Assembly: GCA_947449255.1 (NCBI GenBank)
Contig: CANFQX010000001.1
Location: 62,001 to 126,000, forward strand
Direction: 5' to 3'
Length of the DNA stretch: 64,000 nt
Source of the DNA: Pseudobdellovibrionaceae bacterium
GTDB lineage: Bacteria; Bdellovibrionota; Bdellovibrionia; Bdellovibrionales; Bdellovibrionaceae
Made by a program: the position numbers and the translations under genes. The notes beneath the pieces are model-generated. The model saw nothing but the letters and a program-made list of their open reading frames with translations. It was not told the origin of the DNA and made no database searches. This document shows positions 41,831 through 59,628 of this stretch, piece after piece. Numbering within the stretch: position 1 is the first letter of the stretch; each line of letters begins with the position of its first letter.

Positions 41831-43411
41831 CTAAGCTCTCGCTAGATCGTCTATCAGTTTTAATAACTCATTTTTATGAAACGGCTTGGTGATCTGCAAA
41901 TCGCAGCCGGCGGCTATATTTTCTTGCAGGTCTTCTTTCATAGCATGAGCAGTCAAAGCCCATATCTGCGCGGGAGACCAGTTTTTTTCTTTTTCTATCT
42001 CGCGCATTTGGCGCGTAGCAGAGATGCCGTTCAAGACAGGCATTTGTATGTCCATCAAGACCAAATCGGGCTTAAATTCTTTGTATATATTGACCGCGCT
42101 TTGCCCATTTTCTGCAAAGATCAAGCGTTGAGGTCTGCTTTTTAAGTAAATTCTAATGAGATTTCGATTATCTTCTGAGTCGTCGACGACTAGGATTTTC
42201 AACTGCTTAGACTTGGACTTGGACTTGGACTTAGAATTGGAATCAGAATCAAAAGTTTCAAAAATTTGCTTTTTTTGGTGAGATTCTTTTTTTTCTCTGA
42301 GTATTGGCAAGTGGAGAGTGAGAATAAAGCGAGAGCCTCTGCCTTTTATGCTATCCGCCCGAATAGAACCGCCCATCATTCCCGCTAGATGGCTGCTTAT
42401 AGAAAGACCTAATCCTGAGCCCCCATATTTTCTTGTTATTGTAGAATCTGCTTGGGAAAAGGGGCGAAAAAGTGTTTTTAATTCATCAGGACCAATACCA
42501 ATACCGGAATCAATGACTTCAATTCGAATATTGCCAGGAACTGTGCTTTCTGCATTCCCTTTCGCTATTAAGGTAATCTCGCCGTGAATAGTAAATTTTA
42601 AGGCATTAGATATAATATTAAAGAGAATCTGCTGAATCCTCGTCGGGTCGCCGGTGTAGATATTTTGAATTTCAGGTGCTATATCAAATGTAAATTTTAA
42701 ACCCTTTCTCTGAGCCTCAATTGAGAAAATATCACAGGAGCTTTTTACAAGTCTGGGTAAGTCGATTTCTATATTTTCTAGTTCGACAAGGCCGGATTCA
42801 ATTTTTGATAAGTCTAAAATATTATTAATAATATTTAAAAGACTGTCTCCAGACTTCCTGGCAATTTCAAGAAAGTGCTTTTTTTCTTCATTTAATTCTG
42901 ATTCCTCCAACAGGTCTGTCACTCCAATGAGGACATGGAGCGGGGTCCTGATTTCATGACTCATATTAGATATAAACTCTGATTTTATGCGTGAAGCGAC
43001 TTCGAGTTGCGAATTGAGACTTTGCAGAGATGCCGCTTCATCTTTGAGCGCTAGGAGTTGCGGAATTAAGGGGATTAGAGATACCCCCGTATAAAGCGAC
43101 ACCATTGCTGTCAATGCTTTAAACAATACATGAACTCGATAGATAGGAACCCAGATGGTATAGATATCCAGCACGTGAGTGATTCCACACAGCAAAATGA
43201 ATGCAGAAAAAAGAGTGAGGATCCGGCGAAATTCTTTTGATTTTTGTCTGCGACTGAAGTGGTAAATTGCGATGGGTATTGAAAAATAAGAAAGAGAAAT
43301 TAAGGCATCCGAAACAGCCTAAATCCACAAAATATCCGGCGACCATAAATAACAATGTCCGTGAGGCATGAACGAACTTGCCGGCATCAGATCCTTAAAA
43401 AAATCAAACAT
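41831..43411 (-). CDS. ethylene-receptor-like hybrid sensor histidine kinase, interrupted by an in-frame TAG
   Basis: Read from the ATG at 43411 (GGGA upstream), the frame encodes 526 codons with one TAG at codon 31 (43321-43319). The N-terminal three-helix membrane domain keeps the ethylene-receptor pattern: 'SDALISLSYFSIP' in helix I and 'LLCGITHVLDIYTIW' in helix II, with Cys75 and His79 at the copper-ligand positions. HisKA has His152 in 'SNMSHEIRTP'. The HATPase G boxes are 'DSGIGIG' and 'YGGSGLGLSI'. The REC domain has Asp454 in 'LVLMDIQMP'. A Ser-Lys repeat links kinase and REC. Sequence after the TAG is undamaged, so this is a very recent nonsense mutation, read-through, restart or sequencing error. 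Confidence 0.82.
42208..42240. repeat. TTGGAC hexamer repeat encoding a Ser-Lys linker
   Basis: About five imperfect hexamers of the type TTGGAC/TTAGAC occur in tandem. On the minus strand they encode alternating Ser-Lys between the kinase and receiver domains of the hybrid kinase. Such short repeats can change length by slippage in steps of two residues without a frameshift. Confidence 0.75.
43319..43321 (-). other. in-frame amber codon inside the ethylene-receptor-like kinase
   Basis: CTA on the plus strand is TAG in frame with the ATG at 43411 and with the whole downstream kinase. It falls between 'DILWI' and 'AVSDALISLSYFSIP', just before helix I. A single base change from a sense codon (for example TAC, TAT, CAG or TTG) would create it. 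Confidence 0.9.
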
Positions 43412-43605: not shown

Positions 43606-45054
43606 CTAAAAGACACTCAAAAGAGAATAACTCGTGATATACCACTTCTCTCGATCCAACTGAGTTGCACGATCAGAGTTCAACATGAGCAGTCCTTGTT
43701 GTTGATCACTATTTTCATAATTTACACCCAACTGAAGGTAGGGAAAACCTATGGGGTGGGCGTAGGAACCATCACCTAAGTTTGGTGTCATTCTGTTTAC
43801 AAGCATAAGATTAGGTCGACTTGCAAATAAACTTGTGGCGGCTAAACTGACTGATGCTCCTAAAGGAATCCCTTGCGGAATAGTATTTACTAGCAATTTA
43901 TTTGTCATCAAACCGACATTTACTTTTCCATTGCAAGGTTGCGCCTGATCCCAGGGAAAAGGACTGGCAATGTTTTGCTTGTAATTCACTTTTTTGCCAG
44001 TCTTATCAATGAGAAAGTAATCAAGGCTGCTGTTGACGTAATTATAAAAATTAGAATTGAAAACACCAGTGGTTGGTGCTCCAAATACTTGCGGTGGAAC
44101 TGCAGATCCCGGTGCCCCACAGGCTGCTGATACATTTAAACCTGAATAACTAACCCATAAATCGATATAGCTGTTTTCTGGTTTTACATCAACGGTAGAT
44201 TTATAAACCCATACGACCTGTATCTCTTTTTCTTTGCAAACATAATCTAGGACATAATTAATTTGTCCCTGAACAGGATTGCCAAAGGTTTTGGGATCCA
44301 CCGCTGTAAATGAGGTGTCCCCTTTCCAACTTGTCAGAAAACCAGCCGTCGTGTAATGAACTCCCACAGCGTTTTGCATCCCCTCATTGCCTCGTGTAAA
44401 ATGACTTGCACTCACGCCTTGAGGATAAACTGTCGAAAATACATTGATCTGAGTCGGAGATGTTTTAAAGACTATCGTATTTTCTAGTGGAGGCGCAAAT
44501 TTATCCCAAAAATAAGACTGCCCCTGAGGAGAATTCGACCCGACAATCAGTTCATTTTTAGACCAATTCCAGCAAATACCATTTGCATTTGGAAGTTCGG
44601 CCGCCGGTGAATAGCTACTGAAAAAGTATCTAAAATTACTTGTATTTGGGTTCAACGACCAATACCCAGCCAGACCACCAGACCTAGCCCATTTAGAGCC
44701 GGTACCTGGACTGTCATCCACCGTATAGTCAAACCAAGCTAGGTAATAATCACTGACAAAGACACGATCGCCGTCAGTTCCCCCTCTCATCAGCCCCTTT
44801 TGTTGTCCACGATAAGGGCATCCAGTTTTTGTTGATCGATCGGCAGCAAGCACAATATTTTTAACAATAGTGTCTGGCATATGAGAGGCATTATCGACAG
44901 TGATAAAAGATCCATCATCCAGTTGAACATTAATCCTTTGGACTGGCGCAAGATCAGTATAATTTTTCACTGTTGCATTCTGAAACAGAGCAATGCCTAA
45001 AAAGAAAGAAATGGACAGAATAACAAGCACTCTTGGTTTTTGATAAATTTTCAT
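43606..45054 (-). CDS. large exported protein of unknown function
   Basis: A 482-residue protein with an N-terminal hydrophobic segment (residues 9-24, 'VLVILSISFFLGIALF') acting as a signal or anchor. The rest is rich in aromatic residues, Gly, Asn and Ser, with many short beta-strand-like stretches, e.g. 'YYLAWFDYTVDDSPGTGSKWARSGGLAGYWSL'. Four cysteines ('TGCPYRG', 'GICWNWS', 'DYVCKEK', 'AACGAPG') may form disulfides. The composition fits an outer-surface or secreted beta-rich protein. I do not recognise a family, and both neighbours are unrelated in function. Confidence 0.78.
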   Translation of the reverse strand: MKIYQKPRVLVILSISFFLGIALFQNATVKNYTDLAPVQRINVQLDDGSFITVDNASHMPDTIVKNIVLAADRSTKTGCPYRGQQKGLMRGGTDGDRVFVSDYYLAWFDYTVDDSPGTGSKWARSGGLAGYWSLNPNTSNFRYFFSSYSPAAELPNANGICWNWSKNELIVGSNSPQGQSYFWDKFAPPLENTIVFKTSPTQINVFSTVYPQGVSASHFTRGNEGMQNAVGVHYTTAGFLTSWKGDTSFTAVDPKTFGNPVQGQINYVLDYVCKEKEIQVVWVYKSTVDVKPENSYIDLWVSYSGLNVSAACGAPGSAVPPQVFGAPTTGVFNSNFYNYVNSSLDYFLIDKTGKKVNYKQNIASPFPWDQAQPCNGKVNVGLMTNKLLVNTIPQGIPLGASVSLAATSLFASRPNLMLVNRMTPNLGDGSYAHPIGFPYLQLGVNYENSDQQQGLLMLNSDRATQLDREKWYITSYSLLSVF

Positions 45055-58964: not shown

Positions 58965-59497
58965 TTAAATGCGCTGGTAATGTTTAACAAGTTCACTGAT
59001 CTGGGGCAGCCCAATGGGCTTTGTTAAATAATCGTTCATGCCAGCTGATTTTGCGGCCTCGCGCTCATCAGATCGAAATCTTGTGGATTTGCTTTGAGTA
59101 TCTGCAGAGCCTGAAAACCATCTTTGCACAAAGTTGGTTGCACCTTTATTTTTTTAAGCATCAGATCGAGCACATTCAAATTTATTTCATTGTCATCTAC
59201 ACAAAGGATTCGAAAATTCGCCGGCTCCACAGGCCCACTGGGATCTAAGTTCGAGTTATTGGCGGCACTGGCCTCTGCCACTTCCATGCCTTTTTCCTTA
59301 CGATCGAAAGTCAGTTCAAACCAAAAGGTGCTGCCTGCCCCCAACGTGCTTATCACACCAATTTCCCCACCCATCATTTCAATCCATTGCTTGCTAATAG
59401 AAAGACCTAGTCCTGTTCCACCGAAGCGACGAGATATACTTCCATCCGCTTGAACAAAAGGCTCAAAAAGTTGGCCGATAGATTGCGCACTTTTCTA
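58965..59497 (-). pseudogene. remnant of a hybrid histidine kinase / response regulator
   Basis: The minus strand encodes the end of a HATPase domain ('[18 protein letters not shown]', '[21 protein letters not shown]') and the start of a receiver domain ('[20 protein letters not shown]'). It then shifts frame at about 59050. The alternative frame continues with the receiver's C-terminal end ('[27 protein letters not shown]') to a TAA at 58965. About 40-45 residues of the receiver core, including the phospho-accepting Asp, are missing at the junction. Upstream of about 59497 an in-frame TAG stops the frame and no further kinase sequence is recognisable. This is a truncated, internally deleted relic. 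Confidence 0.82.
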
Positions 59498-59628
59498 AAA
59501 GCTCTAGAAAGCTATCTAGAGGAAAAAAAACAAACTACTGTCGACCAAGGTCCGTCAATTTAACTCCTCAAAACTCGACTCCTTTAAACCTCTCTGATCT
59601 CCGATATAGAGATTGCACAGGAGTGTTT

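Follow-up and report, generated by a model that had tools for sequence, protein, structure and literature searches.

The locus considered here encodes an ethylene-receptor-like sensor kinase of a Pseudobdellovibrionaceae bacterium and carries an amber codon close to its 5′ end. It raises the question of whether this stop marks a gene that is being lost, a codon that is read through or bypassed by a later start, or an error in the sequence. These were the causes proposed in the initial annotation, which had been made from the DNA letters and described a plant-type pattern of helices with one TAG at codon 31 and nothing else decayed. The genome (3.21 Mb in 34 contigs) is estimated to be 99.97% complete with 2% contamination. 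We analysed a stretch of 64,000 nucleotides of its contig 1, hereafter called the window, and the genomes of relatives.

One reading frame interrupted by a single amber codon

Translation of window positions 41831-43411 on the minus strand, from the ATG at 43411 to the TAG at 41831, gives a single frame of 526 codons plus the terminal TAG. The sole internal in-frame stop is the TAG of codon 31 (window 43321-43319). With this codon read as X, the frame matched the Pfam family ETR1_N with 113 bits (E=8e-33, against a cut-off of 27), and the score was 117 bits in a genome-wide search. A transmitter module follows, composed of HisKA (79 bits), HATPase_c (91 bits) and Response_reg (84.5 bits), all far over their Pfam cut-offs in the read-through frame. 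The identification as an ethylene-receptor-like sensor kinase was therefore borne out. Coordinates are given in Table 1.

The ETR1_N alignment places 96 residues on 96 profile positions (2-97) and starts 4 residues ahead of the stop. Since this match spans the TAG in one frame, the two sides of the codon belong to one domain and one frame. In addition, the chance of finding 495 open codons downstream of the TAG is about 1e-14 as judged from base composition so that, together with the domain match across the stop, a frame open by chance can be set aside. No second stop or frameshift was found in the 1.58 kb of the gene and its domains are intact, in line with the initial description of a single TAG without further decay. 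The sequence as given shows a disrupted coding frame, one of the marks of a pseudogene, in the form of one nonsense codon.

Between kinase and receiver, the linker (42206-42241, minus strand) contains six copies of a 6-base repeat, translated in part as a Ser-Lys run. The repeat unit is a multiple of three, and a change in copy number would preserve the frame.

Table 1. Features of the kinase gene and their positions in the window
Feature	Position	Strand	Evidence
Ethylene-receptor-type hybrid histidine kinase gene, one amber inside	41831..43411	-	Translation, Pfam
30 codons preceding the stop, MFDFFKDLMPASSFMPHGHCYLWSPDILWI, including the conserved MPHGHCYLW block	43322..43411	-	Translation, alignment
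Shine-Dalgarno-like TAAGGA (43397-43392) and ATG codon 9 (43387-43385), possible true start	43385..43397	-	Sequence scan
In-frame TAG, codon 31, in the conserved block ahead of helix I	43319..43321	-	Translation, alignment with relatives
ETR1_N (PF25487), residues 27-122, three membrane helices by homology	43046..43333	-	Pfam, alignment
TTG codon 73, first canonical start codon past the amber, without Shine-Dalgarno match	43193..43195	-	Start-codon scan
HisKA, residues 143-207, H-box MSHEIRTP	42791..42985	-	Pfam
HATPase_c, residues 254-369; boxes N, G1, F and G2 intact on visual inspection	42305..42652	-	Pfam, translation
Response regulator receiver, residues 406-520; motifs VVDDS, DIQMP and KP intact on visual inspection	41852..42196	-	Pfam, translation

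Ethylene-binding residues and comparison with known receptors

Seven residues are needed for ethylene binding in Arabidopsis ETR1 (AtETR1), namely D25, Y32, I35, P36, I62, C65 and H69, of which D25, C65 and H69 are given in PMC11819568. We aligned the kinase with 19 relatives of the order and with Arabidopsis ETR1. D35, Y42, I45, P46, I72, C75 and H79 were all present, together with K98. All seven binding residues are kept in 12 of 20 bacterial sequences, the kinase under study counted. The helix I motif SDALISLSYFSIP and the helix II motif LCGITHVLD were confirmed in the translation, and the Cys/His copper-ligand pattern is as first described, with C75 and H79 as candidate ligands.

Two other members of the genus carry ETR1_N (L039 and L042, in genomes G016 and G017, respectively), and both have Ser at the counterpart of Pro46 (AIS, not SIP). 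The same Ser was observed in L041, from another family. Judging from these residues, the three possibly represent a subgroup with altered binding.

AzoEtr1 of Azospirillum brasilense and the kinase described here share the N-terminal three-helix ethylene-binding domain, at equal spacing from the start. The AzoEtr1 residues D35, C75, H79 and K98 (PMC11819568) have identical numbers in our kinase, the seven binding residues are kept in both proteins, and the lengths are 525 and 526 residues, respectively. AzoEtr1 is intact, has been shown to bind ethylene, includes a PAS domain and has its receiver encoded by a separate gene (PMC11819568), whereas the kinase here gave no Pfam match to PAS, has the receiver fused to its C-terminus and carries a TAG inside the gene. 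SynEtr1 (slr1212) of Synechocystis is of the same bacterial ethylene receptor type and combines a histidine kinase with the seven residues (PMC6682694); unlike the present gene it is intact and of demonstrated function, responds to UV-A too and signals to a separate regulator, slr1213 (PMC6682694). Arabidopsis ETR1 shares PF25487, the copper ligands, a kinase region and a C-terminal receiver with our kinase but is a plant protein that includes a GAF domain and has cysteines at its N-terminus. Domain identity between the two is about 35%.

No relative found shares the amber codon

The initial annotation had named orthologues lacking the upstream 30 codons as evidence that would speak against an interrupted gene. 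This comparison was carried out, and the FMPHGHCYLW block or a near variant of it was found upstream in 17 of the 19 aligned relatives of the order, with L046 and L047 diverging. The result that would have spoken against an interrupted gene was thus not obtained. At the position of the TAG itself, the alignment shows His or Asn for most relatives and Gln for ETR1. The aligned sequences are not close: the best ETR1_N identity among them was 45%, no close orthologue was present in the genomes searched, and a scan of genome contigs retrieved kinase relatives, again without a close orthologue.

Among 141 genomes of the order, 24 carry ETR1_N, and of their 25 copies only the one under study is interrupted. 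The corresponding figures are 3 of 24 genomes for the genus and 63 of 369 for the phylum. A stop at the position of codon 31 was not found in any relative among the order and phylum copies. One further phylum copy with an internal TAG occurs in G224, an assembly 59% complete. This ETR1_N kinase (L238, G224:C256:3500-8000) is interrupted once, by a TAG at a codon where relatives have a conserved Trp. Interrupted copies are thus few and share no common site, the picture that separate lesions of recent date, or errors, would give. A recurrent amber at one site of the family was rejected, this TAG being located at the Trp position, far from codon 31. Within the genome under study, a pattern of stop-interrupted kinases was rejected as well, because the five other flagged matches that were inspected (one each in contigs C2, C3 and C4 and two in C11) overrun ordinary gene boundaries.

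Directly upstream of the kinase gene lies a 482-aa ORF (window 43606-45054, minus strand) for which none of the other 23 genomes of the genus gave a match; it is an orphan and was possibly gained horizontally. Dating of the lesion by synteny with this gene failed, since no other member of the genus has it.

A probable young nonsense allele, or an error of the sequence

Between 3.8 and 4.4% of substitutions in the kinase gene would create a stop. With indel shares of 5-20% assumed, later neutral mutations can have affected about 1-2% of sites at most (95%), which is a rough bound. In the absence of a second lesion over the length of the gene, we consider the amber codon to be young. An example of what decay looks like is found in the same window, where a remnant of a hybrid histidine kinase (about 58970-59500, minus strand) retains the C-terminal half of HATPase_c (43.6 bits) and a broken receiver. 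Its N-terminal part is missing, with several stops upstream and a frame break, and it shares 36% identity over 141 residues with the kinase under study, which by contrast has no further lesions.

In bacteria, in-frame stops are reported to be mostly short-lived and at the level of population polymorphisms (SNP-like) (PMC7918605), which fits with a young nonsense allele. The stop alleles of Belinky et al. 2021 (PMC7918605) resemble the present one in having a single in-frame stop in a gene otherwise kept and in being probably short-lived; they were filtered for stops common to orthologues, whereas the TAG of the kinase is common to no relative found. We therefore regard the amber codon as probably a young nonsense allele, that is, an incipient pseudogene of the known bacterial ethylene-receptor family; the ETR1_N family and single-stop alleles are both already known. 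As far as the alignment can tell, the His or Asn of relatives would count against a simple nonsense mutation from the usual residue. Because the codons of both amino acids differ from TAG at two positions, either a different sense codon preceded the TAG or both positions were altered.

The same observation bears on an error of consensus or assembly, in which case the organism would have a sense codon here and a normal, uninterrupted ethylene-receptor kinase: one miscalled base is not enough to make TAG out of the usual His or Asn codons. Such an error would agree with the wholly intact remainder of the gene and with an assembly that is imperfect, as indicated by its 34 contigs, its estimated 2% contamination and its lack of tRNA-Gln. 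The latter was found in the assembly neither by Rfam search nor with the tRNA-Gln of a genus relative as query, and its absence is probably an assembly gap. Against an error stand the near-complete state of the assembly and the other flagged kinase matches which, once inspected, were not truly interrupted. We judge an error to be unlikely, but it is the alternative to be taken most seriously.

Read-through of the amber codon

Leaky or regulated read-through would yield a little full-length receptor despite the TAG, at a low level that is useful to the cell. Kinase, receiver and sensor parts indeed look fully kept, and bacterial in-frame stops surrounded by sequence with dN/dS below 1 have been reported (PMC7918605). 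However, RF1 (prfA) is present in full length in the genome (496.6 bits, over the curated cut-off), together with a second release-factor match. The search for a suppressor tRNA, recommended in the initial annotation, revealed no CUA anticodon among the 35 tRNAs read by ARAGORN (from 37 tRNA matches), an incomplete set in which tRNA-Gln was likewise not found. Furthermore, TAG terminates 13 of the 49 window ORFs of at least 150 aa, including an SDR neighbour, a lysS-like gene and the kinase gene itself, and a general amber suppressor would therefore extend all of them. No relative has a stop at codon 31 either, the TAG of G224 being far off at its conserved Trp codon. Read-through, as first proposed, is thus unsupported and in our view highly improbable. 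Genome-wide recoding of TAG was rejected on the presence of RF1 and the normal use of TAG as terminator among the window ORFs.

Two partial tRNA-like matches (L155 and L156, in contigs C11 and C13 of the assembly, G000; 38.5 and 32.9 bits, respectively) were not called by ARAGORN. They are apparent tRNA remnants and were rejected as CUA tRNAs, since the alignments place GCA and TAC, not CTA, in their anticodon loops.

Start sites on either side of the amber codon

All candidate starts of the full-length protein are located 5′ of the TAG, at the in-frame ATGs 43426, 43411 and 43387 (codon 9). The best Shine-Dalgarno match, TAAGGA with a spacer of 4, belongs to ATG codon 9, which may be the real start. 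The numbering of D35, C75, H79 and K98, equal to that of AzoEtr1, supports an N-terminus at or near 43411.

Beyond the amber, the earliest ATG, GTG or TTG is TTG codon 73, and a protein begun there would already lack helix I and five of the seven residues for ethylene binding. A late start would therefore produce, at best, a sensorless kinase, and the bypass by a downstream start that the initial annotation had considered cannot save the ethylene sensor. A restart whose product, a kinase-receiver protein shortened at its N-terminus, would function without the sensor could draw on this TTG and on the further in-frame GTG codon 80 and ATG codon 103, with kinase and receiver intact. Nevertheless, no Shine-Dalgarno match was found ahead of TTG codon 73 and only 3-base matches at the other two, and promoter-like sites in the region did not exceed the shuffle mean. 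Such a protein would also begin inside helix II or III, whereas relatives keep the N-terminus. We give a restart very little credence. That the amber codon is a kept low-level switch, a trickle of read-through by which termination efficiency tunes the ethylene sensing of a predatory bacterium, is hardly credible.

Meaning of the interrupted receptor

Taken together, these results leave two of the four proposed causes standing, the recent loss that we favour and a sequencing error; read-through is unsupported, and bypass by a downstream start would not restore the sensor. By descent, the gene is a member of the bacterial ethylene-receptor (ETR1_N) family, and its present allele should make no receptor. 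By analogy with the family, the intact receptor is expected to coordinate copper through C75 and H79 of its three-helix membrane domain and to bind ethylene or another small alkene like it, the ligand state being passed to its own HisKA/HATPase core and then to the C-terminal receiver. In the genome as it now stands, translation is expected to end at the TAG after 30 codons (or 22), before helix I, and would give no receptor. This would be the outcome of a nonsense mutation that arose recently and may still be polymorphic in the species.

Our literature search found no paper centred on ethylene receptors of Bdellovibrio. The present gene adds a patchily distributed ethylene-receptor family to the predatory bacteria, with one ETR1_N copy that is apparently being lost. 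As lesions go, the amber codon is unremarkable, and it is most likely not a new decoding trick.
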